64,000 nt of DNA from an uncultured Bacteroides sp. (GTDB taxonomy: Bacteria > Bacteroidota > Bacteroidia > Bacteroidales > Bacteroidaceae): NCBI GenBank assembly GCA_902388495.1, contig CABMPP010000012.1:1-64000 (forward strand). The letters run 5' to 3'. The position numbers and the translations under genes were made by a program. The notes under the pieces are model-generated. The model saw only the letters and a list, made by a program, of their open reading frames with translations. It did not search any database and was not told where the DNA came from. Shown here one piece after another: positions 2,265 through 28,744 of the stretch (its first letter is position 1; the number at the start of each line of letters is the position of its first letter).

Positions 2265-2916
2265 AGAATGAAGCGAAGTTTTTGGGCAGGTATTTATCAT
2301 ATCCTCCGTATTCTTCCTGTATCATTTGATTGAGTTGCTTGTTGACTGTGACAAATCCAACTTGTACTTCGGCACCGATGATGAACCGGCGGTAGTCGAA
2401 CGTAAGCCCGATGGCAAGACCTGCATCGAAGCGGTTGTTACCCATCTTGCCATCTATCATACTGCCGAAGGTGTCTATCTTGAAACGGTAGGATGATGAC
2501 ATGCTGCTACTTGCATAGTCGTTTATCTCGCCGGATGATTTGCCGCCTACACCTATGGCTACATAGGGGCCTGCACTCAACGAAGCATGATAATCCTTGC
2601 CCAGGTTGAGACGGGCGGCTATCATAATGGGGAGTTGGATGTACAGCTCGTTTATGTCCGCTTTGCCCATGTACTCTATTTCTTTCTTGCCGCCGATAGA
2701 TACGAATTCCAGTGCTGATTGCAGAGACCAGGTTCTGTTAAGTATATACTCTGCACCGACTCCGGCCTTATAGGCAATCTTGGTTTCCCTGCCCGTATAT
2801 TTACCGTGGAAGTAGGATGTTCCGATGCCGGCCTTGGCATGAAAAGAGAGCGGATTTTGTGCCGTTCCGCTCAGTGCGGCCAGCGCGAGGCAGAGGGTGA
2901 TGATAATTTTTCTCAT
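2239..2916 (-). CDS. PorT-like outer-membrane beta-barrel protein
   Basis: This 225-aa protein has a signal peptide (MRKIIITLCLALAALSGTAQ) and then alternating amphipathic strands, ending in FFTLGYRFW with a terminal aromatic residue, as in small outer-membrane barrels of the porin-like/PorT group. Its ATG overlaps the stop of the upstream cbiJ-cbiD fusion as ATGA (2913-2916), so it is the last, translationally coupled gene of the corrin-ring operon. That placement hints at a link to corrinoid or cobalt traffic, but nothing in the protein shows a ligand. The 3' end overlaps the convergent MATE gene by 26 bp. Confidence 0.75.
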   Translation of the reverse strand: MRKIIITLCLALAALSGTAQNPLSFHAKAGIGTSYFHGKYTGRETKIAYKAGVGAEYILNRTWSLQSALEFVSIGGKKEIEYMGKADINELYIQLPIMIAARLNLGKDYHASLSAGPYVAIGVGGKSSGEINDYASSSMSSSYRFKIDTFGSMIDGKMGNNRFDAGLAIGLTFDYRRFIIGAEVQVGFVTVNKQLNQMIQEEYGGYDKYLPKNFASFFTLGYRFW

Positions 2917-9419: not shown

Positions 9420-10241
9420 TCATTCTTTTAGCATAGCTTTGATGTGGTCGATGTATATCCGGCGGATGGTAATATTTTCACCCAGACCTTGCATACGTAC
9501 ATTTACCCGGTAGCCTTGTTTTTCGAGTTCTGTCTTCCACACACCGGCAATGTCTTCTTTGGTATGATTGCCGCAGACCAACAGCAACGGGACCAATGTT
9601 ATGTTTTTAGGTCGTGTCTCTTTCAGTTGTAGCAAGGTAGCGTCCAACGTAGGATAACCTTCGATGGTGCTGACATGGAAATTCTTCAATCCATGTGCTT
9701 TCATCATAAAGTCGAGCATGGCATAAGTTGCCGTGCTGGGTAGCTGGTTGCCGTGCCCCACGTAGACCACATCTTCTTTCTTGTCCGGTTGTTCGGCCGT
9801 CAATATACCGATTACCTTTTCGCAGTCTTCTACGGAGTACAGCAGGGGATTGCCGACTTTTATCTCCTTGAAGAACGGGCGCACCTTGTCTGCGTCTCTG
9901 CGGACGGATGTCATCTCGCTGCCCTCAATCAGAGTAGTGCTTTGTACGTAGACTTTTTGATAGCCGTCGGCGCGAAGTTTTAGCAGGGCATCCGTCGGAC
10001 TGTCTTTGTCGACGCCTTCCTTGGCAAGTTTTCTTCGCACAATCGGGGAGATGTATGCTTCGCGCACCTCGAATTGCGGGAAGGCTTCTTTGGCTTCACG
10101 GGTAATGACGTCAAGGGTCAGTTCGCGCGTTTGCGGGTCCGAACTGCCGTAATGGGTGATAAGCAAAGCCGCCTTCTCCTCTTGTGCGGAGGAGAAGAGG
10201 CTGGTGCCGAGTAAACAGAGAGTAATGAAAAAATGCTTCAT
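9420..10241 (-). CDS. cbiK: exported CbiK-type sirohydrochlorin cobaltochelatase, copy 2
   Basis: This 273-aa protein starts with a signal peptide (MKHFFITLCLLGTSLFSSAQ), so the mature enzyme should be periplasmic. The body is the type II chelatase fold: ALLITHYGSSDPQTRELT, then VVYVGHGNQLPSTATYAMLD and LVPLLLVCGNHTKEDIAG. The two histidines (VGHG and GNH) align with the metal-binding pair of Salmonella CbiK. The family inserts Co2+ (or Fe2+) into sirohydrochlorin without ATP. ATG 10241 places the signal peptide at the N-terminus; the longer reading would extend back into the receptor gene. It lies 22 bp after the TonB receptor and is clearly paralogous to copy 1 (17959-18906). A periplasmic location is odd for a step whose product is used in the cytosol. 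Confidence 0.87.
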   Translation of the reverse strand: MKHFFITLCLLGTSLFSSAQEEKAALLITHYGSSDPQTRELTLDVITREAKEAFPQFEVREAYISPIVRRKLAKEGVDKDSPTDALLKLRADGYQKVYVQSTTLIEGSEMTSVRRDADKVRPFFKEIKVGNPLLYSVEDCEKVIGILTAEQPDKKEDVVYVGHGNQLPSTATYAMLDFMMKAHGLKNFHVSTIEGYPTLDATLLQLKETRPKNITLVPLLLVCGNHTKEDIAGVWKTELEKQGYRVNVRMQGLGENITIRRIYIDHIKAMLKE

Positions 10242-10263
10242 ATCTTTAATGTTTAGAAAGAGA

Positions 10264-12333
10264 TTATTTAAGTCTGAGTGCCAGGCTGAACATGATCGAA
10301 CGTCCCGGAGAATAGAGGGCAAAGTTCTTGTTCAGCGGGCGGTTGTCCTTTTTGTTGAATATATTGTCGATGCCGATACCCGGCTCTACTACGAAGTTGC
10401 GGAAACCGTCGAAGGTATGGCGAGTATTGAGGCTCCAGATGCCGTAACCCGGAGCATTTCCGTCTGCATCTCCCGGATAGTAGACCTTGCTTTGAATACG
10501 ACCGTTCAGGTTGATGTTCAGGGTGTAGTCGCTCCAACTGTGTATGTAGTTTCCGGTGATGGTAGCTGTATGGCGCACACTGCGTTCGATGTTTTGCCAT
10601 TCGCCTCCTTCGTTCAGACCGCGTCCGTAGGCGTATGTGTAATTTCCGGCCAAGGTGAATCCGGAGAACAGATTGCCGTTGAGGTTTACTTCAAAACCTT
10701 TGACGGTGGCTTTGTCGAAGTTGAAGTAGTTCTTCACACTCAAGTTCTTGGTGGACGAGAGATCGCCAATTTCGGGAAACTCCTTGCGCAACTGGTTTTG
10801 CTCGGCTTCGGGCAAATCGTCGAATTTGGTGGACTTGGAAGTTACCATGCTTTTTACATAATTCAGATAACCGGTAACGGAAGCGCTGAAACGGTTGGTA
10901 CGATATTCCATGTTTATGGAGTAGTAGTTGCTGTGTTCGGGGTCCAGGTCTTTGTCTCCCAATGAGATGGTAGATCTGGTACCCATCGTCTGCTTGAACA
11001 TGTGGTAATAGAGTTCGTCGATTCCCGGGGCACGGAAGCCGGCTGCATACGTGGCGCGTACGTTGAAGTTGCCAACGTTGTACATGGCTGCCACTTTCGG
11101 GGTGAAGCGGCCACCGGTTTGTTCGTGGTGGTCATAGCGCACTCCCACAACGCCGGTGAGGTGCTCCCATAGCTTTACTTCATGTTGTCCGTAGGCCGAT
11201 GCGGTGTAGACGCCTTTGTCCAGGTCGGAGTCGGGGCGGTGCAGCACTTCACGACGATAATCCACACCAAATACGGTGGTGCTGTTGGCGGTGAAGCCAA
11301 AAATACCTTTCAACTCGGCATCGTGGAATTTCTGGAGTTTGGTGAGTGCGTATTGTCCGGGCAGGTAACCGCTGTTCTCAATCATGTATTTATAGCGCGA
11401 AGCATAGTTATTGCCCGAGTAGTCGAACTGGAGGACGTTGCGCTTGCTGAGCTTATATTTGGCTCCCGCTCCCCAGTTATACCCCTCATAAGTGGTGTTG
11501 TACTTGCTGCCGCCAGTTATATCTTCCTGTTCTACGGGACGTTCCAGACCACGGTTGTAATATCCGCCATTGGCATAGAAAGAGAGCCGGTCCGTGGCAT
11601 CGTAAGTAAACTTCTGCGAGAGATTGTTGGAACTATATCCTATGGACAATGGGGCAATAGTTTCAATCAGCTCCTCGCCGTCTTCCGTCAGGCAGTTGTT
11701 CTGCCAGCCGTCGGAATGGTCGTATTTATAAGAAGTATAAGAACTTATTTTTCCTTGGGAAATGTCCAGGTTCAGTCCTTGTGAGAACTGGTTCTTCCGG
11801 GTGTAGCTGCTGTTGCTGCTGAAAGCTACCACATCTTTCGGTTCGTTGGTGATGATATTGATTACACCTCCGATGGCGTCTGAACCATAGAGCGAGGAAG
11901 CAGCTCCGTTCAGTACCTCGATACGCTTTATGCGGGTCATGTCTATCTGGTTGAGATCGATGTTACCGGTGATGTCTCCCGTTACTTTACGTCCGTTCAC
12001 CAGTATCAGTACGTGCTTGTTGGAGAGGCCGTTCATCATCAGGTACGATCCCATGGCGTTGGGACGGAAAGAGATGGATGGCACCATCCTGGTCAGAGCT
12101 TCCTGAAAGTCGGTGATGCCGGCACGTTTTATTTCGTTGGCAGTGATGACCGACACCGGAGCCGGTGTATTCTTCAGTCGCTGGTGTGTACCTGTACCTG
12201 TAACAACAACCGGATTCAACTCATAAGTCTTTTTTGTCATGTCCTCGCTTTCGCCTTTTTCGGCTTGTGCATAAGCACCGGTAGCGATGAATCCGCCCAT
12301 CAAGAGGGCAATCAGAAATCTTTGTTTTACCAT
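10264..12333 (-). CDS. TonB-dependent outer-membrane receptor, BtuB-like
   Basis: This 689-aa receptor has a signal peptide (MVKQRFLIALLMGGFIATGAYAQ), then a plug domain (about 35-160: TYELNPVVVTGTGTHQRLKN, VLVNGRKVTGD, GAASSLYGSDAIGGVINI) and a 22-strand-type barrel ending in SLALRLK. It has no N-terminal carboxypeptidase-like domain and no SusD partner, so it is a metal or cofactor receptor of the BtuB/HmuR class rather than a SusC. The neighbouring chelatases suggest a corrinoid, cobalt chelate or tetrapyrrole ligand, but this is inference. It follows the DUF2149 gene after a 114-bp gap that holds its own candidate promoter. Confidence 0.87.
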   Translation of the reverse strand: MVKQRFLIALLMGGFIATGAYAQAEKGESEDMTKKTYELNPVVVTGTGTHQRLKNTPAPVSVITANEIKRAGITDFQEALTRMVPSISFRPNAMGSYLMMNGLSNKHVLILVNGRKVTGDITGNIDLNQIDMTRIKRIEVLNGAASSLYGSDAIGGVINIITNEPKDVVAFSSNSSYTRKNQFSQGLNLDISQGKISSYTSYKYDHSDGWQNNCLTEDGEELIETIAPLSIGYSSNNLSQKFTYDATDRLSFYANGGYYNRGLERPVEQEDITGGSKYNTTYEGYNWGAGAKYKLSKRNVLQFDYSGNNYASRYKYMIENSGYLPGQYALTKLQKFHDAELKGIFGFTANSTTVFGVDYRREVLHRPDSDLDKGVYTASAYGQHEVKLWEHLTGVVGVRYDHHEQTGGRFTPKVAAMYNVGNFNVRATYAAGFRAPGIDELYYHMFKQTMGTRSTISLGDKDLDPEHSNYYSINMEYRTNRFSASVTGYLNYVKSMVTSKSTKFDDLPEAEQNQLRKEFPEIGDLSSTKNLSVKNYFNFDKATVKGFEVNLNGNLFSGFTLAGNYTYAYGRGLNEGGEWQNIERSVRHTATITGNYIHSWSDYTLNINLNGRIQSKVYYPGDADGNAPGYGIWSLNTRHTFDGFRNFVVEPGIGIDNIFNKKDNRPLNKNFALYSPGRSIMFSLALRLK

Positions 12334-12359
12334 ATATTATTTTATTTTATATAACGCAG

Positions 12360-12390
12360 CAAAGGTAGGCATCATTTTGAGGCTCTGAAA
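12360..12390 (-). promoter_or_regulatory. candidate promoter of the second TonB receptor
   Basis: The minus strand reads TACCTTTG (12367-12360), a match to TAnnTTTG, 26 bp upstream of the receptor start, with an approximate TTTC at the -33 position (about 12386-12390). The gap is too short for a second cobalamin riboswitch. Confidence 0.45.
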
Positions 12391-12447
12391 TACTTAAAAC
12401 TTGTCATAATAGAGGTGCGGAATAACTATATGTAGGTAGTGAATTCT

Positions 12448-12774
12448 CTATTCCGGCACGTAGATGATTTCTCCATTTTCCAGCTGATAGGCAACGCCTA
12501 CCTTTTTACCCCGCTTGCCGGAGGGCTGCTGTTCTTCGCTGGGGGTATATTTTTTTATTTCCTGCCCTTCTTTGGTAATGATTTCCATATTTTCCTTTCC
12601 GGGATTCTTCACCATGGTGAAGTCTTCTTTCGAGAACATTTCTGTCATGTTAAAGCGGGAGACGAGTGCTACCATCAAGGCCACGGCAAAGACCATGGCC
12701 ACGTCGAAAAGATTGGCTACCGTACCCATCGGGTCGGAGTCCGTGTTGTTGTGGAGGAGTCGGTTTCGTTTCAT
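12448..12774 (-). CDS. DUF2149 (ExbD/HmuV-like) membrane protein
   Basis: This 108-aa protein has a short cytoplasmic N-terminus, one transmembrane helix (about 19-40, TVANLFDVAMVFAVALMVAL) with an Asp near its start (FDVAMVF), and a soluble domain ending GVAYQLENGEIIYVPE. The single helix with a buried acid and a periplasmic domain is the topology of ExbD/TolR. DUF2149 proteins sit with an ExbB-like protein and a CobN-like protein in hmu-type loci. Its ATG overlaps the stop of the ExbB-like gene as ATGA (12771-12774), so the two are probably made in a fixed ratio. It probably couples the proton gradient to the CobN-like protein or a receptor. Confidence 0.8.
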   Translation of the reverse strand: MKRNRLLHNNTDSDPMGTVANLFDVAMVFAVALMVALVSRFNMTEMFSKEDFTMVKNPGKENMEIITKEGQEIKKYTPSEEQQPSGKRGKKVGVAYQLENGEIIYVPE

Positions 12775-13394
12775 TGGATGGGGGATATGGGGTTAGAAGC
12801 AATTACCGGAGTACTGAGTACCTTGTACAGATATTCCAGGTCGTTCATCTCGCGGGCGTACCAGCGTTGTTTCACTTGCAGGGTGACCACCCCGATGGCT
12901 GCAATGACCATGCCTACCACAGTGGTGGCAAAGGCTACTTGCATGTTGTAGGCCATGGAAGAGATATCTCCGGCGGCAAGTCCTACTAGAGCGGGACCCA
13001 TCGGGATCAGTGTTCCCATAAGTCCCAGCATAGGACCCAGTTTGATGAAGGTGCGCGAACGGCCCAGTTCCTTTCCGGCATCCACCTCGTAGTTGGCCAG
13101 CAGACGTTCGCAGTAATCTGCATTGTCGCGTCGTTCGGACAACTTCTTCAGGCAGCGGAGAAGAGGGGAGTTGCCTGCCGGAGGAAGCTGTTGCAACCGT
13201 TCGTCCCTATTTTCGCTGTTGATGTCTTCCAGTATATCAGTAAATTGTTTTTGTAATTTTATCCGTTGGTAAAATTCACCGAAGAAACCTCCTGCGAGAA
13301 TAATGGCACGGAGGAAAAACAAGAGCAGCAGGACTACGACCGGAACCAGTAATCCGTTGGAGATCCAGAAAAGAGTATTTGAAATTGTTTCCAT
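12771..13394 (-). CDS. MotA/TolQ/ExbB-family proton channel (HmuU-like)
   Basis: This 207-aa inner-membrane protein has a first helix at about residues 12-33, a cytoplasmic loop with helical charged segments (CLKKLSERRDNADYCERLL), and two more helices around LMGTLIPMGPALVGLAAG and VAFATTVVGMVIAAIGVVTLQV. The GLMGTLIPMGPAL and ATTVVGMVIA stretches are the conserved MotA/TolQ/ExbB core. With the DUF2149 partner it should form a proton-driven motor. General ExbBD for TonB is normally elsewhere in Bacteroides, so this pair looks dedicated to the locus. It overlaps the DUF2149 gene by 4 bp and follows the 185-aa membrane protein by 33 bp. Confidence 0.87.
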   Translation of the reverse strand: METISNTLFWISNGLLVPVVVLLLLFFLRAIILAGGFFGEFYQRIKLQKQFTDILEDINSENRDERLQQLPPAGNSPLLRCLKKLSERRDNADYCERLLANYEVDAGKELGRSRTFIKLGPMLGLMGTLIPMGPALVGLAAGDISSMAYNMQVAFATTVVGMVIAAIGVVTLQVKQRWYAREMNDLEYLYKVLSTPVIASNPISPIQ

Positions 13395-13427
13395 GATGAT
13401 GGTATGATTTATAGTTTATATTTCTTT

Positions 13428-13985
13428 TTAATAGCCGGTGGCGATGATGCTTAGAATGACAATGAAGATGTTGACTATGAACAAAACCTCAAGACGAAGT
13501 GATTTGTCACCGAGAAGCAGGTGGAGTAGCGGACTACCAAGGCAGACCGTCAGGAAAGCAGCGAGTGCCGCTATCCATGAGAGGTTGACAAAATCTATGC
13601 CCGGATAGGAGAATAGCAGTAATGCCAGTGCATAACAGATTACGCCGCCCACTAATACGCCCGGGTAGAGTTTCAGAAAGAACGTTACTGCCTGTTTGAA
13701 GACTGTATTGCGCGTACGTATCTCTGCAAAGCAGTCGAAGCAGAAGGCAATCATCAATACCGCTTCCAGCGTGACGCAAACAGAGAGGTTCAGCATTTGC
13801 GCACGCGATGTAAAAAAGGCGCTCATCACCGTTTTAGATTGCTCCGTCATCCAGGGAGTGACCAGCCAGGCGAACAGGGCACAACCAGTCGCTGCCGCCA
13901 ATATCCCCCAGCGGGAGTAGAACCCGACTTTCAGCAGGAAACTGGCGGTAACGAAAACAGCCAGAAGGTGTATCACGTACTCCAT
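13428..13985 (-). CDS. small polytopic membrane protein of the chelatase locus (HmuT-like position)
   Basis: This 185-aa protein is almost wholly hydrophobic, with five or six transmembrane helices (for example VIHLLAVFVTASFLLKV, LNLSVCVTLEAVLMIAFCF, LYPGVLVGGVICYALALLLF and VLFIVNIFIVILSIIA). No catalytic motif is visible. It lies between the CobN-like gene (8 bp) and the ExbB-like gene (33 bp), the place held by hmuT in the Porphyromonas hmu operon and by DUF2162-type proteins in archaeal CobN clusters. A role as a membrane subunit of that complex is inferred from position only; I cannot confirm its family. Confidence 0.6.
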   Translation of the reverse strand: MEYVIHLLAVFVTASFLLKVGFYSRWGILAAATGCALFAWLVTPWMTEQSKTVMSAFFTSRAQMLNLSVCVTLEAVLMIAFCFDCFAEIRTRNTVFKQAVTFFLKLYPGVLVGGVICYALALLLFSYPGIDFVNLSWIAALAAFLTVCLGSPLLHLLLGDKSLRLEVLFIVNIFIVILSIIATGY

Positions 13986-13993
13986 ACTTTAGA

Positions 13994-16900
13994 TTATTCC
14001 TTCTTCCTTTTTTTCAGTAACACCACCAGACCAATGAAAGCCGCGATTACTATGGCCCCGATAATAACACCATTAATTTTATGCTTGCGTGTCACTTGCT
14101 CCGGAGTCAGTTTCTGTTCTTTCAGAACAACGTCCTTTCCTTTGGTAGTGGCGGCTTCGTGCACGCTTTTCATATTTTGGTTGTAGGTTTGTTTATCTTT
14201 ACTGTCCAGCTGGTCGGCAACAAATGCTTGCAGTTTGACATTGTCGCAGACAAACTCGGTACAGGCCGCACCTTTATCACGGGTGGTCTGTGCATGCAGG
14301 GCGGCGGTAGTTTTCAGTTGTTCTTCGGATGCTTTCCAATATCCTTTGCGGGCACTCTCCAACATTACGGCTGTGATGGCCTGGAAGGCAGCCGGATTGA
14401 CGCGAAGAAAATACTCGTGGATACCCAGTTTGTTCTCATCCTGTATATACATCTTATACAGGTCGTTGAAAAGTTCCTTGTCCATAGCTGAGGGACGCAT
14501 GACGTGCCAACCGAAGATGTTGCGGAAAATCTCGCCGAACATTTGCGCCGTACCTTCACCGCCTTTCATCCTTTCTTGTATGTAAGTAGGATTTAGGACA
14601 GTGGCACGCGTCTCTACGGCGATGGCTTCTTTGGCATCCTGCATACGGCGGTTGGTGCGGTTGCGGTAGTCGGCCATGTAGGCATCCGGTTCCTTGCCGG
14701 TTACGGTCTTGACGGTAAGAGACAAGCCTCCCGTAAATTCGTAGACATGATCCAGCGAAATGGGTCCCCATGTATTGCTTTGGCGAGGCTGGATGACGAC
14801 ATCCGTTTCGGACAGGGCAGAGGCAAACAATCCCTCCTGTACATCTCCCCAATTACTATCGTCGCCATAAGTGGCTCCCATATTATTAAGATAGCCTGCC
14901 GCTATTTCCTTTTCATCTTCCCACGAACCGCTATGCTCGGTATATGCCATTATGCCGGTACTGTAACCACTGTTTACCGGGCCGAATACACGCATTACGG
15001 ACATTTCGCGGGCGCGTTTGGGAGAGGCCCCTTTCTCTACCAGCAGTTTTTCCTGTAGCAGTGTTCCCGATGCTACATAGTTGGGGTAGACTTCATCTTT
15101 GGCTTCCGATGCCAGGCGCACGGCGTCGGTCAGCAGTTTCAAGCGAGAACCGGCTATGTCGCGAAGCTGTCCGGAAACTTGAACCAGGACATTGATACGT
15201 GGGCGTCCCAACTCTTCACTTGGCACCAGTTTCAAGTCTACTACCCGCCCTTGTCCGTCGCGTATGGGTTCTATACCGAGCATCCAGAATACTTGTGCTA
15301 ATGTAGCACCTTCGGTATTGATGAATTCGCCAGCCCAGAATGTATAACTTACTTTCCGGGGATATTCGCCGTGCTTGCTGATGTACTGTTTCAGTGTGGC
15401 TTCTGCCAAGCGCTTTCCGTCTTCCCAAGCACGGGGATTCGGTGTGTTTTCAGCATTGATGCTGTACATGTTGCGACCGGTAGGAAGTACGTTCGGATTC
15501 AGTACCGGATCACCACCCGGAGCGGGAAAGACGGTGCCACCACCCAGTGCACGTACCATGGCATTCAACTCGTTTGTGGTCGATGCTATCAGTTGCTTAC
15601 GATAGAGTAGGGCAGGGCGGAGTTCCGGTGCTACGGAAGCCGTGTCTTTGGGCGGATTTTGCAGCAGGGCTGTCAGCCGTTTTCTGGCACCGGGCAGGTA
15701 ATGGTGGGCTATGTAGGTGAAGTCCTGTAACTGCTCCGTGGTAATCTTTCTCTTATCCCGGTCTTTGCGGGCGGTTTCGTAAGCCAGAGGGTCGGCGGCA
15801 ACGGCCAGAGTTGTTGTCAGCAGGTCGCGTTCGGAGTAAGGTTCGTCCATGGTGTAATAGGCACCCTGCATCTTTTCATTGGCTATCTCTTCGGTGAAGG
15901 CATCCAGGCGTTCCAGTTCTTCGGTCGTATAGGGTTTGTCGGGTATAGAGTCCAGGTCGAGGTCGCGATGCAGGCCCAGGCGCATTGCTTCTTTCTTGAT
16001 ACGTATTCCCAGCATTTGGTATTTTTCCGTGCCTTCGTCCAGGACTTTATGGATATCTTCCAGCAGGGAGGAGTAGCGTTGGCGCATGCCACTTTCCGCA
16101 TAAGGCGGAGTGAGGTAGGTCACCAGCACGGCATGTGTGCGACGTTTGGCAATGATGCCTTCGCCTATGTTCCCGGTTGTATAAAAATAGAAATGCGGAA
16201 GATTGCCCACTAATACGTCCGACCAGTCTGATTGTGACTGAGCTACGTTTTTTCCGGGTGTGTATTCCAGATTGCCATGCGTACCGAAGTGGATGAGTGC
16301 ATCTGCCTTGAACCCTTTTTGCATATATAGGTAAGAGGCAAGGTAGCTGTGCGGAGGAGCTACCGGCATGCCATGCACCAGTTTGAATTCATCGTCTCCC
16401 AATGCCGGACGGGGCTGGGGGAACAACAGTACGTTTCCGAATTGCAGGCAGGCAACGGCAATGCTGTCTTGGGTAGCCAAGAGGTTACCCGGAGCATCTC
16501 CATATCGGTCGGTTACTTCTTTGTATTTTTCCGGGAGAAGAACTTCGTGTGCCCATTGCTCATATTGTCCGGCAGATAACCATACGGGATGTGCTGTCTT
16601 TAGGAACTGCTCTTGTGCACCTTTGGCGTATGACCCCATGACGGAACCGTCGCGATGAATCTGTTTGCCGAACTCCTCCACTGTGGCAGGCAGTCCGCTA
16701 ACGTCATATCCTTCGTTACGCAGGCGCTTCAGAAAATTATAGAGTGAAGGAATCACCTCCATGCCGCTTGCCAGCAGGGCATCTTTTCCGGGTGTCTTGA
16801 AGTAACAGATGGCGACGCGTTTATCCTGGTTCGGCATATCTTGCAAGGACATGTACTTGCTGATGTGATCGACGAGTGCATTGATTCGTTCCATTTCGGC

Positions 16901-17905
16901 GGTGTACATGTAATAGCCTTTTTCGTTCTCGTTTTGTGTGGCAATGCAGAGGGGAGCCATGCCACCGTCTATTTCCGGCACTACTACGCGGGCTGTCAGT
17001 GTGCCTCCACTGACCGGAGTATTTCTATCCAACCATTCTTCGTGAGACTGTATCAGGGGAAAAGGCATAAAGAGAGGAATATTTTCCTGGTGCAGCCAGT
17101 TGATGAGTGAATCGTTGCCCAGCCGTCCCATCGGAAGATAAACAAGCCCGTCGGGATGGAGCGAGCGTATCATGTTTGCCCTTTCTTCGCCACCTGCGGT
17201 GAATGGATAGACGTTGAAGCCTGCTTCTGTCAAGCGGGATATAAGGGTGTCTACATGGGCACGGTTACCTTCCATCGGGAAGTTGAGTCCCGAAATAAAG
17301 GCGAGGTTGCAACCGCTCTCGTGATAAAGATTCTTTTGTTTCAGGTAGTCGGTTACTTCTTGCGGAGTCTTGAAGTAGCGCCCGTATTCCCGGTGATAGA
17401 ACATATTCTCCAGCAGAGGGATCGGAGCTTCGTAATCTTGATAACCCCATCGTTGAGGAGTGGCAAGATGGCGCAGGTAGCGCAGGGCGTTCCGATAGTT
17501 ATGCTTGCTGGCATTTTTGAAGTATTCGCGCAAAGTAGCTTGATCTTCATCGGTAATATTGTGGTTGACGGAATAGCTGAAGTTCCGCAAGGTGTTTGTA
17601 AATATAGGCACACCTTTGGCTGCTACCCTTTCCAGTTCGGCTATTTGTGTTTCGTCAAGGAATAAGCCTCTGCTGTACATCATGATGGCATCGTAGCCGG
17701 AAAGGTCTTTCACGTCTTCTTTCTTGATGCAGGTCACGTCTATCCGGTCGCAATCGTTGTTCAGTGCAATGTCTGCTGCTTGTGCAAGCGTGGGGTTGAT
17801 GATGAGGATGCGGGTAGGTGCCCACCAGTATTGGTAGGCTGCAAAGCAAGCTGCTATCAGTATGGCTATGCTGCAAAGGATTATTCCTAAACTTTTTCTA
17901 TTCAT
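13994..17905 (-). CDS. membrane-anchored CobN/HmuS-like chelatase large subunit
   Basis: This 1303-aa protein has a CobN/magnesium-chelatase H core: HFGTHGNLEYTPGK (around residue 545), YFYTTGNIGEGIIAKRRTHA, and VSYTFWAGEFINTEGATLAQ further on. Cytosolic CobN is of similar length, but this protein has a transmembrane helix at each end (about residues 7-24 and 1273-1295, the last followed by KKRKKE), so the catalytic body is predicted to be periplasmic. No CobS/CobT or ChlI/ChlD AAA+ partners occur nearby. Anchored CobN homologues of this type are HmuS proteins, reported to remove iron from haem. Its position under a B12 riboswitch and beside two exported CbiK proteins suggests a cobalt or corrinoid substrate instead; that part is inference. 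Confidence 0.85.
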   Translation of the reverse strand: MNRKSLGIILCSIAILIAACFAAYQYWWAPTRILIINPTLAQAADIALNNDCDRIDVTCIKKEDVKDLSGYDAIMMYSRGLFLDETQIAELERVAAKGVPIFTNTLRNFSYSVNHNITDEDQATLREYFKNASKHNYRNALRYLRHLATPQRWGYQDYEAPIPLLENMFYHREYGRYFKTPQEVTDYLKQKNLYHESGCNLAFISGLNFPMEGNRAHVDTLISRLTEAGFNVYPFTAGGEERANMIRSLHPDGLVYLPMGRLGNDSLINWLHQENIPLFMPFPLIQSHEEWLDRNTPVSGGTLTARVVVPEIDGGMAPLCIATQNENEKGYYMYTAEMERINALVDHISKYMSLQDMPNQDKRVAICYFKTPGKDALLASGMEVIPSLYNFLKRLRNEGYDVSGLPATVEEFGKQIHRDGSVMGSYAKGAQEQFLKTAHPVWLSAGQYEQWAHEVLLPEKYKEVTDRYGDAPGNLLATQDSIAVACLQFGNVLLFPQPRPALGDDEFKLVHGMPVAPPHSYLASYLYMQKGFKADALIHFGTHGNLEYTPGKNVAQSQSDWSDVLVGNLPHFYFYTTGNIGEGIIAKRRTHAVLVTYLTPPYAESGMRQRYSSLLEDIHKVLDEGTEKYQMLGIRIKKEAMRLGLHRDLDLDSIPDKPYTTEELERLDAFTEEIANEKMQGAYYTMDEPYSERDLLTTTLAVAADPLAYETARKDRDKRKITTEQLQDFTYIAHHYLPGARKRLTALLQNPPKDTASVAPELRPALLYRKQLIASTTNELNAMVRALGGGTVFPAPGGDPVLNPNVLPTGRNMYSINAENTPNPRAWEDGKRLAEATLKQYISKHGEYPRKVSYTFWAGEFINTEGATLAQVFWMLGIEPIRDGQGRVVDLKLVPSEELGRPRINVLVQVSGQLRDIAGSRLKLLTDAVRLASEAKDEVYPNYVASGTLLQEKLLVEKGASPKRAREMSVMRVFGPVNSGYSTGIMAYTEHSGSWEDEKEIAAGYLNNMGATYGDDSNWGDVQEGLFASALSETDVVIQPRQSNTWGPISLDHVYEFTGGLSLTVKTVTGKEPDAYMADYRNRTNRRMQDAKEAIAVETRATVLNPTYIQERMKGGEGTAQMFGEIFRNIFGWHVMRPSAMDKELFNDLYKMYIQDENKLGIHEYFLRVNPAAFQAITAVMLESARKGYWKASEEQLKTTAALHAQTTRDKGAACTEFVCDNVKLQAFVADQLDSKDKQTYNQNMKSVHEAATTKGKDVVLKEQKLTPEQVTRKHKINGVIIGAIVIAAFIGLVVLLKKRKKE

Positions 17906-17958
17906 AAAGAAGACATTTTAAATAGTGGGGGAATTAAGCAAGAAATAGGACTATATAT

Positions 17959-18906
17959 TTATTCCGGGTCTTTTCCGGCAGCATAAGCGGCTTTCTTGGT
18001 CATAATGTCCAGCATCCGGTGTTTCAGCCCGAAACGGATGTGTTCGATGAATATATCCTGTATTTCGGGTACTTGTCCCAAGCCTTCAAGACGTGCATTG
18101 ACCGTGAAGTCTTCTTTTTCGAGTGCTTCCTTCCATTCACCGGCAATGTCGTTCTTAGCATGGTCGCCGGCAACGAACATAAAGGGGACAAGCGTTACTT
18201 TCTTAGCTTTCGCAGCTTTGAGTTGTGCCAGCATTGTCTCGAAAGTAGGATAGCCTTCGATGGTACCTACATGGAAGTTCGTCCGTCCGGCAGCTTTCAG
18301 CATATAGTCCATCTGGCTGTAGATGGCGGTGCTGGGCGTATAAGTGCCATGACCTACGAGGACGAAGTTTTCCTTCGCAGTTTTCTTTCCCTGTGCAGGT
18401 GCATCGAGACGTTTCCCAAGTATCTCAACAACTTTTTCCGCATCTTCCGTGGAGTAGAGCAGGGGAGTGCCTACGCGGATTTCCTTGAAGAAAGGCAACA
18501 CGCTTTCTACATCGCGGCGGAGGGATTCCATTTCTACACCATCTATAATATTAGTGCTCTGCACGATGACATGTGTGTAACCCTCGCCACGCAGGCGCAG
18601 CAGAGCCTCGAGTGGAGTAATTTTATCAATGCCGCGCTGTTTCAGTCGGCGGATAATGATGCGTGAGGTATAAGCCTCTTGGAATTTCAGTTCGGGGAAG
18701 GCGGCTTGTGCCTTGGCATTGATGGCATCGATGGTCAACGCGCGGGTATCGTCGTGCGTCGTACCGAAGTGTACCATGAGCAGGGCGGCTTTGTCGCCGG
18801 GTTTCATATTTGCCAGCATATCGCTGTGTTCATGATTACCTCCCTCGTGCGCACGGCAGAGGAGGGAGATAGTCAGTATCATTAGGAGAGAGAATACTTT
18901 TTTCAT
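17959..18906 (-). CDS. cbiK: exported CbiK-type sirohydrochlorin cobaltochelatase, copy 1
   Basis: This 315-aa protein has a signal peptide (MKKVFSLLMILTISLLCRA) followed by a histidine-rich mature start (HEGGNHEHSDM) that could bind metal. The chelatase body has LLMVHFGTTHDDTRALT, FVLVGHGTYTPSTAIYSQMD and LVPFMFVAGDHAKNDIAG; VGHG and GDH carry the likely metal-binding histidines. The family inserts cobalt into sirohydrochlorin; Desulfovibrio has a periplasmic form of uncertain role. ATG 18906 gives the signal peptide and starts 11 bp after the DUF4374 stop; the longer reading would overlap that gene by more than 100 bp. It lacks close DNA identity to copy 2, so the two are old paralogues. 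Confidence 0.87.
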   Translation of the reverse strand: MKKVFSLLMILTISLLCRAHEGGNHEHSDMLANMKPGDKAALLMVHFGTTHDDTRALTIDAINAKAQAAFPELKFQEAYTSRIIIRRLKQRGIDKITPLEALLRLRGEGYTHVIVQSTNIIDGVEMESLRRDVESVLPFFKEIRVGTPLLYSTEDAEKVVEILGKRLDAPAQGKKTAKENFVLVGHGTYTPSTAIYSQMDYMLKAAGRTNFHVGTIEGYPTFETMLAQLKAAKAKKVTLVPFMFVAGDHAKNDIAGEWKEALEKEDFTVNARLEGLGQVPEIQDIFIEHIRFGLKHRMLDIMTKKAAYAAGKDPE

Positions 18907-18917
18907 GAATCGGCTTA

Positions 18918-20231
18918 TTATTTGTCGTTTTCTATCACTCTGAGGATGTCGAAGTAATAGCCTTCTGCAATTTCCACGCCTTTCTCTACCTTGCCGGTTG
19001 CAATGTCGTAGATGTAAATGCAAGGATTGGCATCTTTCGTATTTACACCGATATATGCTTTTCCGTCAACGACTACAGTGCGTTGCGCAAAACGTCCGCC
19101 ACTGTATGCTATTTCTTTACCGTCGTAGCTTAAGCGTGTTCTGCTTCCGGTAGTAAGGTCTACGATTGAGTAGTAGTGGCTGTAATCATCAATAGCAGTT
19201 CCGGCAGCATCGTTACGGGCATATACCAATGCCTTTCCATTGCCCAGGTACTGAACGGTAAGCAACTTACCGTCAGCGTCGGGATAGCCTTCATAAGTGG
19301 TATCGAAGTCTACTTCTCCCTTTTTGATGCGGATCAGGTGTCCTTGCTCCATATCATTGGCATCGGTATATGCAGCCAGGTAGAGGTTGCCTTCTTCGTC
19401 GTACATCACGCAGTTCTGTAACAGTTCTCCGTAGGCACTGCCTGCCATTTCGGCGGCAAGAGTGTTGACGTTGATGGTCTCTATCTCCATAGTAGAAGGA
19501 TTGATGGTAGCCGTCAGAAAGTTGGACGTTGCTTTGCCGCCTCTACCGGATGTGGTTTTGCCAAAGTAGAAGTAGAAGAGCTTACCTGCTTTTTCATTGT
19601 AAGTAAGGATGCCTGAAGTCGTAAATGCTTTGGCACCTTCGGGAAGAGGAAGGTCCAGAGTACCCTCGTCGAGGATTCTCAAATCATCGGCATTGAGCTT
19701 GGTCCACAGAATCTTGTCCACGTCGCCATTGGCTGCCATGATGATAAGGGTATTGTCGTCGGTCCAGGCGTGTGTATAGGAACGTACTTTATAGGTATTC
19801 TTTACGAAAGGTTGTTCCTGCTTAACTACAACTGAGTTTCCTATGATCTGCAACTTGGTGAAGCGTTCGCCGGAGTTAGGTACCTGATAATAATATTTTC
19901 CTTTGACGATGTTCTCTATGGAGTATACGTTGTTACCCTCCTTGTTGTTGAATTCAACACCGTCGTTCTTGATGTCGATCATGGTTTGGTCGGCAGTAAG
20001 GGCATCTACGCTCTTTACGATGGTACCGTTACCCTGGTTCATGCCACCATGCTTGTCTATACTCATGAAGATATCGAAGTGGTAATTGGATTTCTCCGGG
20101 GTGGGGTCGGGATCCGGATCGGGTGTCGGTTCTTCTTTTTTTGCAGGATCGTCATCATCGGAACATGCACTGAACGATACGGTCATAGCCATGACCATAA
20201 GGAAACTGAATAGCAAATGTAACTTTTTCAT
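18918..20231 (-). CDS. DUF4374 surface lipoprotein, partner of the TonB receptor
   Basis: This 437-aa lipoprotein has a signal peptide and lipobox (SFSACSDDDD, Cys about 23), then an acidic run of Asp and a Pro-Asp repeat linker (EEPTPDPDPDPTPEKS), as in surface-exposed Bacteroides lipoproteins. The rest is repeated beta strands of a DUF4374 propeller-like fold (TSGILTYNEKAGKLFYFYF, NCVMYDEEGNLYLAAYTD, AQRTVVVDGKAYIGVN). DUF4374 proteins such as XusB of B. thetaiotaomicron capture siderophore ligands for a paired receptor. This one lies 14 bp after a TonB receptor and under a B12 riboswitch, so it may capture a corrinoid or cobalt complex, playing the part BtuG plays elsewhere. The ligand is not evident from the sequence. 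Confidence 0.83.
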   Translation of the reverse strand: MKKLHLLFSFLMVMAMTVSFSACSDDDDPAKKEEPTPDPDPDPTPEKSNYHFDIFMSIDKHGGMNQGNGTIVKSVDALTADQTMIDIKNDGVEFNNKEGNNVYSIENIVKGKYYYQVPNSGERFTKLQIIGNSVVVKQEQPFVKNTYKVRSYTHAWTDDNTLIIMAANGDVDKILWTKLNADDLRILDEGTLDLPLPEGAKAFTTSGILTYNEKAGKLFYFYFGKTTSGRGGKATSNFLTATINPSTMEIETINVNTLAAEMAGSAYGELLQNCVMYDEEGNLYLAAYTDANDMEQGHLIRIKKGEVDFDTTYEGYPDADGKLLTVQYLGNGKALVYARNDAAGTAIDDYSHYYSIVDLTTGSRTRLSYDGKEIAYSGGRFAQRTVVVDGKAYIGVNTKDANPCIYIYDIATGKVEKGVEIAEGYYFDILRVIENDK

Positions 20232-20245
20232 TTGAATAAAATTTA

Positions 20246-22648
20246 TTAGTTAATAAATAATCTGAATTTAGCGAAGAAGGAGCGGCCCGGCTTCTGTAAC
20301 TTGTAGTTGTCGTAGGCCAACTTATCTAATATATTTACGCATTCCAGTGAGATGTTATATTGTCCCCGTTTCCATGAATAAGTCATATCGGCGTTGTAGA
20401 TGTGCTGTGCCGGGATGCGGGCTTTACTATCGCGTGAACCGTAGGCTTCCCAAGTCAGGAAGAACCAATGCACCCATTGATAGGTGCATCCCAGGCGTAA
20501 CTTGCTTTCGGGCAGCACTACGTTGCGGAATACATAGCTTGCTTCGGCACTGCCGAAGAGCCACGGACGGTTGGGTACGCGGTTATTGTAAGTGGCCGAT
20601 GGCTTGCCGTCGGTCTTATATCTCTTTTGGTCGCGGGCTTCCTGGAAACTGACGTTGGTGGCCAGTTGCAGTTTGCTTTGCCAGTCGTAGCGCACTTCTC
20701 CCTCTATGCCTTTGATGTTGACTGCCGGAACGTTTTCGTATTGCATCATGCCTTCCTTTTCCGATACGGTGGCTTGAATATAGTCGTCCACATAGCGGAG
20801 GAATCCGTTTGCTTCGTAGTAGATGGTGTGTCCCGATGCCGGATGCCACGTCCCGAAGACTCCCAGGTTGACGTTGTCACTGCTCTCGGGATTCAATGCT
20901 ACGTTGGCATAAATGGTGGTACCGTTGCCCAGCAATTCGCGGGCAAGGGGCAGACGGACACTATGTTCATAGGAGAGTTTTATGGAGAAAGGTTCTACAA
21001 GTGTGAAACGTGACCCGGCACCATATCCGTAGTACTCTTTGGTTACGGCACCGCTTATGTTCTTTGAACCTGTGATGCTGGGTAAATCTGTTTGCCGGAT
21101 GTTCAGGTGGTTGATGTACTCCTTGGCAAAGAAGGTGTTGTTCATTTTTCCATTGAAGAAGGACTGGTTATAGGAGAAACCGAGCACATGCTTTGCCAGG
21201 ACGTCGTTGGCGGCTTCAAAGTCAACGTCTACTTCATCGTAGCGGTTGTTTCCCGTACGACTCAGCAGGTAATTCAGGTTGAGGCTGTGATGGTGATTCA
21301 GCTGATAATTCAGATTGGCGCGGGCAATGGTCAACGGACGCTTGTAGTGACGCATGGAGCGTCCGCGTCCCGTTATTTCATTGCGTGAACTTACAATATA
21401 ATCGCCATTCCAGTCGTACTTGCGGTATGCGGTGTCCGTAGTCAGCGAGTGATCCCAGGTGTGAGACAGGAAAGCATTCAGTTGCATATTCTTCAAAATG
21501 AAGTTATGCTTCTGATAGCGTGCCGAAACGTTCCAGGCATCCGATTCCCTTTCCGCCATGCCGTAGACCTTGCTTTGAACGGAACCGGTCTGCAACTCTT
21601 TATTGACTTTGGAGTAGGATCCCGAAACAAAAAAAGCATCTGCCCATGATTTGTTGGCAAAGCCTACTTCTACTTGTCCCAGGAACGAGAAGTAATCATC
21701 GTGGAAACGTCTGCGGTTGGTCAGGACGTATTTGCGTACGTCTTCGTCCCAAACTTCAACGTCTTTCATCATATAGTCGTTCTTGGAGTAGTTTACTCCG
21801 ATGGTGGGCTTGATGATCAATCCCGTCTTAGGCTCCACAAACTGTGTGTTCAAGTCCGCTTTGTGTGTATGGAAAGAGCCGATGCCGTAGGACACGTCCA
21901 GGTAGTTTTTCTTTTCCTGCTTGGTGATGATATTGATTGCACCGCCTAAGGCATCTGTACCCAGACTGGCGGGGACTACTCCTTTATAAATCTCTATCCG
22001 GTCTATGATGTTTACCGGCAGGTTTGCCAATGAAACTTCGCTTCCTTTTGTATCCAAGGGTACTCCGTCCAGAAAGTAGCGGATTGAGTTGCCCGACATT
22101 CCGTTGATGGAGAGGTCGAAGTCCGAACCTACCCCGCCTTCCTCTCTTACCTTGATGCCGGTGGTGCGGTTCACCAGGCTGTTCAGGTTGTTCAGTGAGT
22201 TTATGATCGGTTTGATGTCGAGTGCATTGACAGCGAAAGCGCCTTCTTTCACCCGCTGTGTTTGTGTTTTGCCGTACACCTCGACCGAGTTGAGGGTGAC
22301 GGAACTTTCTTCGAGGGTGAAGTCCGCTTTCTTGTTTTGCTGAATGTTGAGGGAGGTCTTCAGGGTTTGGTAGCCCACGTATGATACGACCAGTGTGTAC
22401 TTGCCGGGCGTGATGGGTAAGGAATACCTGCCATTGTCATCGGTATATGTGCCGGAGGTTGTATTTTCCACTGCAATCGTTACCTGTGGCAGAGGGGTGC
22501 CATGCTTGTCGGTAACAGTTCCTGATAGAACAACCTTGTTTTGTGCTATTACACCTACCTTCTCGTCTTTATCTTTCAGAATACTCTGTGCGGTAGCTGT
22601 TTGTGCTGCACATAACAATACTACCCCAAGCCAATACTTGTATTTCAT
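20246..22648 (-). CDS. TonB-dependent receptor with carboxypeptidase-like domain, first gene under the B12 riboswitch
   Basis: This 800-aa receptor has a signal peptide (MKYKYWLGVVLLCAAQTATA), a carboxypeptidase-like regulatory domain at about 40-120 (LSGTVTDKHGTPLPQVTIAV, then GRYSLPITPGKYTLVVSYVG), a plug (RYFLDGVPLDTKGSEVSLAN, GTDALGGAINIITKQEKKN) and a barrel ending FFAKFRLFIN. No SusD follows; the partner is a DUF4374 lipoprotein 14 bp downstream, as in xenosiderophore systems. ATG 22648 begins the signal peptide; an upstream in-frame ATG at 22699 adds 17 residues that do not fit. The cobalamin riboswitch begins about 140 bp upstream, so B12 should repress it. A corrinoid or cobalt chelate is the likely cargo. 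Confidence 0.88.
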   Translation of the reverse strand: MKYKYWLGVVLLCAAQTATAQSILKDKDEKVGVIAQNKVVLSGTVTDKHGTPLPQVTIAVENTTSGTYTDDNGRYSLPITPGKYTLVVSYVGYQTLKTSLNIQQNKKADFTLEESSVTLNSVEVYGKTQTQRVKEGAFAVNALDIKPIINSLNNLNSLVNRTTGIKVREEGGVGSDFDLSINGMSGNSIRYFLDGVPLDTKGSEVSLANLPVNIIDRIEIYKGVVPASLGTDALGGAINIITKQEKKNYLDVSYGIGSFHTHKADLNTQFVEPKTGLIIKPTIGVNYSKNDYMMKDVEVWDEDVRKYVLTNRRRFHDDYFSFLGQVEVGFANKSWADAFFVSGSYSKVNKELQTGSVQSKVYGMAERESDAWNVSARYQKHNFILKNMQLNAFLSHTWDHSLTTDTAYRKYDWNGDYIVSSRNEITGRGRSMRHYKRPLTIARANLNYQLNHHHSLNLNYLLSRTGNNRYDEVDVDFEAANDVLAKHVLGFSYNQSFFNGKMNNTFFAKEYINHLNIRQTDLPSITGSKNISGAVTKEYYGYGAGSRFTLVEPFSIKLSYEHSVRLPLARELLGNGTTIYANVALNPESSDNVNLGVFGTWHPASGHTIYYEANGFLRYVDDYIQATVSEKEGMMQYENVPAVNIKGIEGEVRYDWQSKLQLATNVSFQEARDQKRYKTDGKPSATYNNRVPNRPWLFGSAEASYVFRNVVLPESKLRLGCTYQWVHWFFLTWEAYGSRDSKARIPAQHIYNADMTYSWKRGQYNISLECVNILDKLAYDNYKLQKPGRSFFAKFRLFIN

Positions 22649-22789
22649 CGTCAGCCGATTTTTTTTGAATAAATAAAACGGCACGTTGCTTCTATGCATG
22701 AATGGTAATGACCCGAAAGAATAAAATAGGCTACCTATTATTATTATATGGGGACATCGCTTCTAACCCTGGAAGCTACGTACTCAAGT

Positions 22790-22975
22790 TATGGAAGTTG
22801 GTAGGTATTCTGGCTCTCCTCTGCCTGTACTGCCTTCCCATTGCGCCGTCGCAACAGTGGCTTTTGTAGTTACAGGCATCTTTCTGTGAGGATTACAGCT
22901 GCAGGTACAGCTCCGGTTTTGCACCGGATTCCCTTGCATCGGTAGGCAGGTTTGTCTTCCCGATTGCCAATTCCG
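22790..22975 (-). promoter_or_regulatory. cobalamin riboswitch
   Basis: Read on the minus strand, this leader has the conserved core GGTGCAAAACCGGAGCTG (22925-22908), the AGCTGTAATCCTCACAGAAA stretch, and the B12-box region beginning GCCACTG (22861-22855) followed by GGCGCAATGGGAAGGC. These are the standard cobalamin aptamer elements in the right order. Downstream, before the receptor start, are a GCTTC...GAAGC hairpin and a short AATAGG/CCTATT hairpin followed by TTATTC (about 22730-22744), a possible expression platform. It should repress the receptor gene and probably the whole series down to the DUF2149 gene when adenosylcobalamin is abundant. Confidence 0.95.
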
Positions 22976-22978
22976 ACG

Positions 22979-22986
22979 CAAAGATA
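22979..22986 (-). promoter_or_regulatory. -7 box of the riboswitch transcript
   Basis: The minus strand reads TATCTTTG just upstream of the aptamer, so transcription would start almost at its 5' edge. No convincing TTTG lies at the -33 spacing. Confidence 0.5.
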
Positions 22987-23116
22987 AGGACAATTTTATA
23001 TTATTTCATGTTTTGTGTTCAAAAAATGTAAAATTATGCATGTATTACTCCAGGTCAGCTATTATATGATACGTTCTGTTCTACGACATCTTCTGTATTT
23101 ATTGCTTTCTTTAGAA

Positions 23117-24514: not shown

Positions 24515-24538
24515 GCTAATATTTATACATACTTGACG

Positions 24539-24570
24539 CAAAGATAGCAAATATTTAACTTTGTAAACAA
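24539..24570 (-). promoter_or_regulatory. promoter of the Schlafen-type regulator
   Basis: TATCTTTG on the minus strand (24546-24539) is a good -7 box, with TTGTTTAC about 19 bp upstream as a fair -33 box. The transcript would have a leader of only about 20 bases. Confidence 0.6.
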
Positions 24571-24632
24571 TATTAAAAGCATAAAAATGAAAACCCAAAA
24601 AGTATTACTTCTTATAGACCTCCAAATAGGAG

Positions 24633-25602: not shown

Positions 25603-25649
25603 TTCTTCTAATTTTTAATTTTTCACTTTTAATTTTTCACTTTTCGTTC

Positions 25650-28712: not shown

Positions 28713-28744
28713 ATTTGTTTGAAACATAAAAAAATGAGTAAAGT

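Follow-up and report, generated by a model that had tools for sequence, protein, structure and literature searches.

What might be the use of cobaltochelatase-family proteins that are exported from the cell and encoded, behind a vitamin B12 (cobalamin) riboswitch, beside a relative of the haem dechelatase HmuS? The question is raised by a locus in a 64,000-nucleotide stretch of DNA from an uncultured Bacteroides sp. (GenBank assembly GCA_902388495.1, contig CABMPP010000012.1, positions 1 to 64,000), referred to here as the window. The answer that we favour, with somewhat better than even confidence, is that the locus encodes a route, repressed by B12, by which a tetrapyrrole ring picked up outside the cell enters the anaerobic (cobalt-first) corrin pathway after its metal has been exchanged in the periplasm. 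Nearly all of the searched relatives that carry this locus lack HemB and HemC and so have no known route to uroporphyrinogen III; therefore, the corrin pathway that they have kept must begin from an imported ring. Metal exchange in the periplasm is the simplest arrangement because the recognised cobaltochelatases are exported and B12-controlled, and their genes adjoin those of outer-membrane receptors, of an importer and of a relative of a dechelatase. Periplasmic cobalt loading is supported by this gene content, though it is unproved.

The riboswitch-led gene run and its relatives

The features of the locus, from the riboswitch onward, are:

22783..22986, minus strand: cobalamin riboswitch aptamer (RF00174, 79.4 bits, E 6.6e-18, full model; gathering score 31.5)
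20246..22699, minus strand: TonB1, XusA-like outer-membrane receptor (PF00593/PF07715; PDB 9gbc, 406 bits)
18918..20231, minus strand: LipoB, XusB-like lipoprotein with a predicted beta-rich fold (profile match to XusB, 9hqe)
17959..18906, minus strand: CbiK1, exported-type protein of the sirohydrochlorin-cobaltochelatase family (PF06180, 261 bits)
13994..17905, minus strand: BtuS (BtuS1 type), membrane-anchored CobN-like protein of 1303 amino acids (PF02514, 947 bits; HmuS 9d26, 1207 bits)
13428..13985, minus strand: HmuT-like small membrane protein (named from its position between BtuS and the HmuU-like gene; no Pfam family)
12771..13394, minus strand: HmuU-like protein (MotA/TolQ/ExbB; PF01618, 45 bits)
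12448..12774, minus strand: HmuV-like protein (DUF2149; PF09919, 121 bits)
10264..12333, minus strand: TonB2, second outer-membrane receptor (PF00593/PF07715; nearest models are B12 and haemin receptors)
9420..10241, minus strand: CbiK2, second exported-type CbiK (PF06180, 231 bits; 47.8% identity to CbiK1)
7900..9309, minus strand: CbiH-CbiC fusion (PF00590, PF02570 and TIGR01466 above cut-off)
6700..7899, minus strand: CbiE-type methylase, named CbiET from its length and place (PF00590, 41 bits)
4831..6684, minus strand: CbiG-CbiF fusion (PF11760/PF11761/PF01890 and PF00590)
2913..4820, minus strand: CbiJ-CbiD fusion (PF02571 and PF01888)

An earlier note, made from the letters of the window alone, had described a B12 aptamer at the head of a run of genes ending at CbiK2. 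The aptamer is the sole Rfam match within the window and does head the run, and all of the named genes are found (by Pfam) on the minus strand in the order given. The locus was drawn too short, however; CbiHC begins 110 bases past CbiK2 on the same strand and is followed by CbiET, CbiGF and CbiJD, down to position 2913. The gaps along the run from the riboswitch-led TonB1 to CbiK2 are -4 to 114 bases, and the likely starts of CbiK1 and CbiK2 are at 18906 and 10241, respectively. An 11-pair inverted repeat (9410-9382) inside the 110-base gap may be a terminator that splits CbiK2 and CbiHC into two transcripts; terminator-like sites in the region number 25, versus 23.3 in shuffled sequences. The CbiT half of CbiET, which has no profile match, is putative, and the scores of TonB2 against its nearest models (TIGR01779, 143 bits; TIGR01785, 141 bits) are both far under cut-off.

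A homology search returned 665 proteins, the best 120 of which span 61-99% identity, and the loci compared here are the best 80 from a scan of GTDB species genomes with a 20-row alignment. By identity these 80 fall into 63 BtuS1-like loci (51-83%) and 17 HmuS-like loci (39-43%). Where at least 5 kb of upstream sequence is available, CbiK is present upstream in 43/49 BtuS1 loci, the lipoprotein in 42/49 and TonB1 in 42/49, and the 12 comparable HmuS loci have neither CbiK nor the lipoprotein (0/12 each) and a TonB1-like receptor in two cases. Where at least 8 kb lies downstream, corrin genes are part of 23 of the 44 BtuS1 loci and none of the 11 HmuS loci, and an importer made up of a substrate-binding protein, a FecCD permease and an ATP-binding cassette (ABC) ATPase is present in 20/44 and 0/11, respectively. 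A cobalamin riboswitch that reaches the Rfam gathering score lies upstream in all six BtuS1 loci tested and in one of 12 HmuS loci; in this sole case (L059) some 10 kb separate it from HmuS, and it sits at the locus edge (these are Infernal matches, used in place of a home-made regular expression that caught just 19/49 BtuS1 loci). HmuY was found in five of eight HmuS-locus proteins tested (a ninth protein, of a BtuS-less CbiK locus, is outside this count), and no HmuY gene lies between the riboswitch and BtuS in the window. A chance assembly of genes was rejected, as the set recurs in many loci, CbiK being upstream in 43 and the lipoprotein in 42 of the 49 BtuS1 loci; the gene set of the window is real and recurrent, and systems of this kind are known (btuS1).

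The earlier note had proposed asking whether CbiK and the riboswitch go with this CobN-like clade and not with HmuS. At the loci they do (CbiK 43/49 versus 0/12; riboswitch 6/6 versus 1/12), but genome-wide the separation is less strict. In a second sample, P0001 is matched in 11 of 121 genomes of the order, namely Bacteroides cellulosilyticus (G001) and ten HmuS-like genomes; three of the ten (G045, G052 and G057) have no CbiK, four others are not listed in the CbiK search, and in G102, G105 and G118 CbiK and HmuS lie on different contigs. CbiK is therefore not excluded from HmuS genomes, although none was found beside HmuS. One of these genomes also encodes a further CobN-like protein (L195, G118:C3:32678-35815) of 1280 amino acids, about 32% identical to BtuS, which shares a contig with the exported CbiK of that genome.

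The operon of the isolate G012 gives the fullest view of the arrangement: TonB1, the lipoprotein, CbiK1, BtuS, a 166-amino-acid small protein, HmuU, HmuV and then the importer genes (substrate-binding protein, PF01497; FecCD permease; ATPase), followed by CbiHC, CbiET, CbiGF, CbiJD, CbiA and an adenosyltransferase. The best NCBIfam model for its permease is BtuC, at 197 bits (cut-off 334); the importer counts above are counts of loci with a relative of this FecCD gene. In B. cellulosilyticus a FecCD-type importer lies just past a MatE gene, with CbiL nearby; the window has a different gene at the importer's place and stops 0.9 kb beyond MatE. Four genomes contribute five BtuS1 loci (L040, L041, L052, L076 and L079) in which the importer comes after BtuS with no HmuU/V match there, so HmuU/V is not an obligatory motor for BtuS unless it is encoded elsewhere, and the "proton-driven" machine that had been suggested is not general. 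Upstream of the riboswitch the window has Schlafen-type (PF04326), Lin1244-type (PF14297) and FimA/Mfa2-type fimbrial genes (23117-33119); at that place B. cellulosilyticus has another riboswitch and a CbiK lipoprotein instead.

TonB1 and LipoB are, by sequence, relatives of XusA and XusB. Cys23 of LipoB is invariant across an alignment of 25, a profile from these 25 relatives matches XusB (PDB 9hqe) with E 9.4e-8, and an AlphaFold2 model of LipoB is nearly all strands (mean predicted local distance difference test score 84.4). XusB is a DUF4374 protein and 9GBC is the XusAB complex of B. theta (PMC13142918; the papers cited here by PMC number are represented by the accessible parts of their text), so the DUF4374 label that the earlier note gave to LipoB was right in kind, although the Pfam DUF4374 model does not match LipoB even at E 10. 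The pair thus resembles that of the XusABC xenosiderophore system of Bacteroides (PDB 9GBC, 9HQE; PMC13142918), which likewise includes a PepSY protein found in some BtuS1 relatives; the window differs in its B12 riboswitch and chelatase operon. This PepSY membrane protein (XusC-like by family) is encoded between CbiK1 and BtuS in L001, L007 and L043, upstream of CbiK1 in L052 and L079, and also in the L019 locus. It is not in the window, where the gap between CbiK1 and BtuS is 53 bases; where present, it could reduce the metal ahead of removal.

Exported-type CbiK and a corrin pathway without its beginning

Tetrapyrrole and corrin genes were counted in 44 genomes (35 BtuS1 and nine HmuS), those of loci picked from the 80 for their long contigs. 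The counts are thus of relatives, and B. cellulosilyticus DSM 14838 (G001), whose BtuS is 83% identical, stands in for the organism of the window; the 35 also include the Muribaculaceae isolate G012. They are not an unbiased sample of BtuS1 genomes, since the P0001 search over 121 genomes of the order found no BtuS1 except that of G001. All 35 BtuS1 genomes have CbiK and 33 have CbiG, and none of the nine HmuS genomes has either; cobalamin riboswitches are present somewhere in 44/44. HemB and HemC are absent from 34 of the 35 BtuS1 genomes. There is no stand-alone CbiX in the 44 genomes (each CbiX match sits within a CbiK gene), and no recognisable cytosolic CbiK or CbiX in the 35 BtuS1 genomes, a search which did not take in HemH or Met8p/SirC-type chelatases.

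Both CbiKs of the window, which the earlier note had called exported, have signal-peptide-like N-termini. The export call used throughout is a simple rule (a hydrophobic stretch after a Met plus a loose lipobox) and not SignalP; by this rule 93 of 99 CbiK genes, mostly from BtuS1 loci, look exported, with 60 Sec-type and 33 lipoprotein-type N-termini, three cytosolic and three unreadable. A same-strand RF00174 match lies within 12 kb upstream of 54 of the 56 CbiK genes in the 35 BtuS1 genomes, with at least one per genome. The motif histidines of GHG and GDH, which we take to be those that bind metal, are kept in CbiK1 by comparison with 1qgo, and CbiK2 has GNH in place of GDH. The two proteins score 195.1 and 182.3 bits against the NCBIfam model SiroCoChCbiK (NF047852, cut-off 400 bits), and FetB (9b86), which keeps the same motif histidines, matches CbiK2 with 119.6 bits and CbiK1 with 116.1 bits.

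CbiK homologues outside the cytoplasm have parallels. IhtB/FetB of Porphyromonas gingivalis (PDB 9b86), presumably paired with IhtA, is one; FetB, however, is named as haem-binding, and the locus described here is under B12 control. The other is the protein of PDB 2xvx, which we take to be the periplasmic CbiK of Desulfovibrio vulgaris. That organism also possesses a cytosolic CbiK, whereas none was recognised in the BtuS1 relatives searched. A second unit, in 16 of the 44 genomes (e.g. L111-L125), consists of a riboswitch followed by a weaker lipoprotein-type CbiK that resembles IhtB; it has a gap of 2.3-2.6 kb (4.5 kb in G020) and an open frame of 361-403 amino acids (531 in G017).

A wider sample of the order (295 genomes) contained 18 with PF06180 above cut-off, of which 16 were inspected (G001 had been counted already, and G136 has a short CbiX-like piece alone). 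CbiK is cytosolic in G144, G294 and G105; G196, G102 and G328 have an exported CbiK plus a separate 124-amino-acid CbiX-like frame, assigned to the cytosol by size alone; nine genomes (G109, G137, which is a single 4.3 Mb contig, G152, G343, G118, G247, G330, G084 and G334) have exported CbiK only; and in G067 the call is ambiguous, as the start could fall past the hydrophobic stretch. HemB is present in the six genomes with cytosolic CbiK or CbiX (as a 67-amino-acid end piece in G328) and absent from all nine exported-only genomes. Over the 51 CbiK genomes of both samples, 43 have only exported CbiK and no HemB, six have cytosolic CbiK or CbiX together with HemB, and two (G017 and G067) are exported-only with HemB.

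Sirohydrochlorin is the substrate of CbiK or CbiX in the anaerobic pathway, whose next enzymes are CbiL and then CbiH (PMC7242693). Matches of CbiL hidden Markov models in most BtuS1 genomes are cross-matches on CbiH and CbiF and were discounted. TIGR01467 gives 133-165 bits in G001, G005, G006, G026 and G029 (the cut-off of 163 is passed by G005 alone), and the next best score is 69 bits, for a methylase fused to HemC in G017. Besides CbiL, the methylases of the 44 genomes are CbiH, CbiE and CbiF (told by length and fusion), proteins of RsmI size, this G017 fusion and a weak extra match in G041. Unlike most BtuS1 genomes, all nine HemB-less genomes with exported CbiK in the order sample have a CbiL candidate (PF00590); eight (G109, G137, G152, G343, G118, G247, G330 and G084) score 110-168 bits with TIGR01467, G152 alone being above cut-off, and the candidate of G334 begins like that of G109. 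A 411-amino-acid frame on the minus strand in G330 (L227, G330:C16:24500-29500) matches uroporphyrinogen-III methyltransferase (TIGR01469, 315 bits) and has a signal-peptide-like N-terminus. It is possibly an exported form of that enzyme in a HemB-less genome, which would be odd because the methyl donor is cytosolic.

BtuS1 compared with HmuS

BtuS of the window has a PF02514 domain with membrane segments at its N- and C-termini and a B12 riboswitch upstream, as in BtuS proteins, which are B12-regulated, exported and CobN-like. The two membrane anchors of the earlier note are visible as hydrophobic terminal segments that align with the ends of HmuS; they are unlike cytosolic CobN, and the score against the NCBIfam CobN equivalog is 580.5 bits, below its cut-off of 1248. 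One of the closest known systems is hmuYRSTUV with its HmuS (B. theta HmuS, PDB 9d26; PMC12583661), which shares the HmuSTUV-type gene order, the CobN-type domain, the HFGTHG and SLDHxxEF motifs and the central His pair. In the window BtuS the HFG(T/A)HG motif is present as HFGTHG, and LSLDHxxEFMGG is matched incompletely, reading ISLDHVYEFTGG, with Leu changed to Ile and Met to Thr. On the other hand the window has Arg79 and Met259 for Met79 and His254, no Met-rich insertion and no HmuY, and has a B12 riboswitch, CbiK and corrin genes instead.

The authors of the HmuS structure define that protein by a Met-rich insertion, Met79, His254 and body motifs (PMC12583661). At the Met79 column BtuS1 proteins have Arg in 59/62 (two Tyr and one gap), and HmuS proteins have Met in 24/26; at the His254 column BtuS1 has Met in 58/62 (four Val), and HmuS has His in 26/26. 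A comparison of 62 BtuS1 with 24 HmuS rows, which excludes the divergent L069 and L194, gave 20 fixed differences (at least 90% on each side), both haem axial ligands among them. Fisher p values take no account of kinship and carry no weight here. The Ser1014 column is Ala in 62/62 BtuS1 rows, and the central His/His/Glu set is kept in every readable BtuS1 and HmuS row. The domain IV insertion is missing in BtuS1, there being no extra residues between residues 750 and 775 of the window protein. At this place 23 of 26 HmuS rows have 46-284 residues and L066, L067 and L074 have 17-18; several HmuS insertions contain no Met or one, hence a Met-rich insertion is not universal in HmuS. With the haem ligands replaced and the central His/His/Glu set kept, BtuS1 probably acts by chemistry similar to that of HmuS on a different ring.

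A tree of 90 rows, made by a quick method, separates the 62 BtuS1 rows from all others by a branch with a Shimodaira-Hasegawa-like approximate likelihood ratio test (SH-aLRT) value of 100, and groups the 26 HmuS rows on one side with a value of 80; two distant CobN-like proteins fall outside. It has 24 open forks and long branches at L195, L196, L194, L044 and L069. The CobN-like protein of the window does not lie within the HmuS clade, the placement by which the earlier note had said its reading would fail, and residues and tree together rule it out as a plain HmuS member.

The proposed route and the alternatives to it

In the route that we favour, both TonB receptors, together with the XusB-like lipoprotein, would, from their families, take in a tetrapyrrole and perhaps a metal chelate as well. 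BtuS, as the sister of HmuS, would strip the metal already in the ring, such as the iron of siroheme, and the exported CbiKs would put in cobalt, as their family, kept metal-binding histidines and export suggest. A FecCD-type ABC importer, in the operon of many relatives and not visible in the window, would carry the cobalt ring to the cytosol, where CbiH, C, G, F, E/T, J and D, whose genes are present, would complete the corrin ring. That the incoming ring is siroheme or sirohydrochlorin is a guess; it fits the genomes with CbiL. A more specific version moves cobalt insertion out of the cytoplasm altogether: BtuS strips a scavenged iron tetrapyrrole (e.g. siroheme), exported CbiK reloads it with cobalt and the ring is imported, and this would be the machinery behind the long-noted corrin pathway of haem auxotrophs such as P. 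gingivalis. We consider this version possible, though doubtful.

A number of observations weigh against the favoured route. CbiL is missing from 28 of the 33 CbiG-bearing BtuS1 genomes; therefore the C20 methyl group must come from elsewhere or the ring must enter later, which is the chief weakness of the route. HemB and HemC are also missing from 8/9 HmuS genomes; their absence is general in these lineages and so not BtuS1-specific, unlike the keeping of corrin genes without them. G017 has two copies each of HemB and HemC (it is perhaps a mixed bin), G067 with its ambiguous start has HemB, and two of the nine HemB-less genomes have a CobA-like methylase, which scores 161 bits in G152, under the cut-off, and 315 bits in G330. 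Most of the genomes are metagenome-assembled, and completeness is not part of the counts. A CbiK tree yields four independent pairs, of which three agree and none opposes, and this is not significant (sign test, p 0.25). In the 121-genome sample neither BtuS nor HmuS is matched in G109, G137 or G152, which do have exported CbiK, so BtuS1 is dispensable to the scheme. Lastly, a B. fragilis btuS1 btuS2 double mutant is impaired on haem iron (PMC6460266).

This last result speaks for BtuS1 being a second haem dechelatase like HmuS, with the B12 riboswitch merely coupling porphyrin supply to tetrapyrrole demand, and the sister-clade relationship and shared central His/His/Glu are in keeping with it. 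We nevertheless think it unlikely: loss of btuS1 alone caused no significant defect, and protoporphyrin release from haem persisted in the double mutant, at about twice the level of its parent (PMC6460266). Moreover, both HmuS haem ligands are replaced in BtuS1; HmuY has no gene between riboswitch and BtuS in the window; and among the HmuS loci examined the riboswitch is found in 1/12, with no instance of CbiK, of corrin genes or of the FecCD importer. It is also unlikely, in our judgement, that in vivo the exported CbiKs act as carriers of bound tetrapyrrole in the manner of FetB/IhtB, and not as enzymes, while an unrecognised cytosolic chelatase inserts the cobalt. The matches to haem-binding-named FetB (119.6 bits for CbiK2, 116.1 for CbiK1), the failure of both CbiKs to reach the SiroCoChCbiK cut-off and the omission of HemH and Met8p/SirC from the search all leave room for it. 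However, 54/56 CbiK genes stand behind B12 riboswitches, which would be odd for a haem carrier, six HemB-bearing genomes have a cytosolic CbiK or CbiX, and the GHG and GDH/GNH histidines are kept in CbiK1 and CbiK2, though FetB keeps them also.

Less likely still, and improbable in our view, is a locus concerned mainly with cobalt supply, with a XusAB-like pair as importer of a cobalt chelate, CbiK and BtuS as proteins that keep or free cobalt for uptake, and another source for the ring. TonB1 and LipoB do resemble the siderophore thief XusAB, and L001, L007 and L043 add a XusC-like PepSY protein between CbiK1 and BtuS, but both the importer and the missing HemB and HemC beside a retained corrin pathway would then go unexplained. 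Salvage of imported finished or damaged corrinoids, with BtuS acting on their cobalt, would suit the B12 riboswitch and the BtuC model that best matches a relative's importer permease. We regard it as very improbable, as finished corrinoids would give no reason to retain CbiH to CbiD, and enzymatic removal of corrin-bound cobalt is not known.

A paper of 2000 reportedly called the corrin genes of P. gingivalis, present without precursor genes, an enigma. Precursor auxotrophy of bacteria with corrin genes, Bacteroidales included, has been proposed earlier (PMC6593275; PMC6461909), and four B12-requiring Bacteroidales species with a complete B12 gene set were suggested to be precorrin-2 auxotrophs (PMC6593275). 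Such precorrin-2 auxotrophs (PMC6593275) and tetrapyrrole precursor salvagers (PMC6461909) have corrin genes without early tetrapyrrole genes, as here; the accessible parts of these papers name no uptake or metallation machinery. The locus type is itself already in print. The BtuS family goes back to Rodionov 2003 (as cited in PMC6460266), and btuS1 of B. fragilis, with its operon BF638R_2501-2512 including cbiK, has been examined for haem iron (PMC6460266); its CobN-like, exported, membrane-anchored protein and cbiK share one operon, as here, a likeness that rests on the published description and not on a comparison of sequences. Mesle 2023 noted B12 riboswitches ahead of hmu-like operons without HmuY, perhaps for cobalamin metabolism, and the operon of B. 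fragilis NCTC 9343 (B12 riboswitch, two HmuR copies, no HmuY) has a similar plan (PMC10100974). The accessible text of these two papers speaks of haem iron, metalloporphyrin salvage or cobalamin metabolism and makes no tie to exported CbiK or missing HemB/HemC (PMC6460266; PMC10100974), and a literature search that left most subscription journals outside it found no publication tying exported CbiK to missing early tetrapyrrole genes. The B12 control, the corrinoid rather than haem-iron context and the periplasmic site of the chelatases that the earlier note had put forward are supported; a proton drive is not general, and the locus type is not new.

That some Bacteroidales keep corrin genes without the precursor genes has so far, in the accessible literature, been explained as precursor auxotrophy only. 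The association of exported cobaltochelatases with B12 riboswitches and an absent HemB points to a likely entry gate for the precursor. If the route is as proposed, B12 would be made from the iron cofactor of another organism, an exchange of which the literature searched gave no record. Our findings suggest that such bacteria build their B12 from an externally scavenged ring that is loaded with cobalt on its way in.

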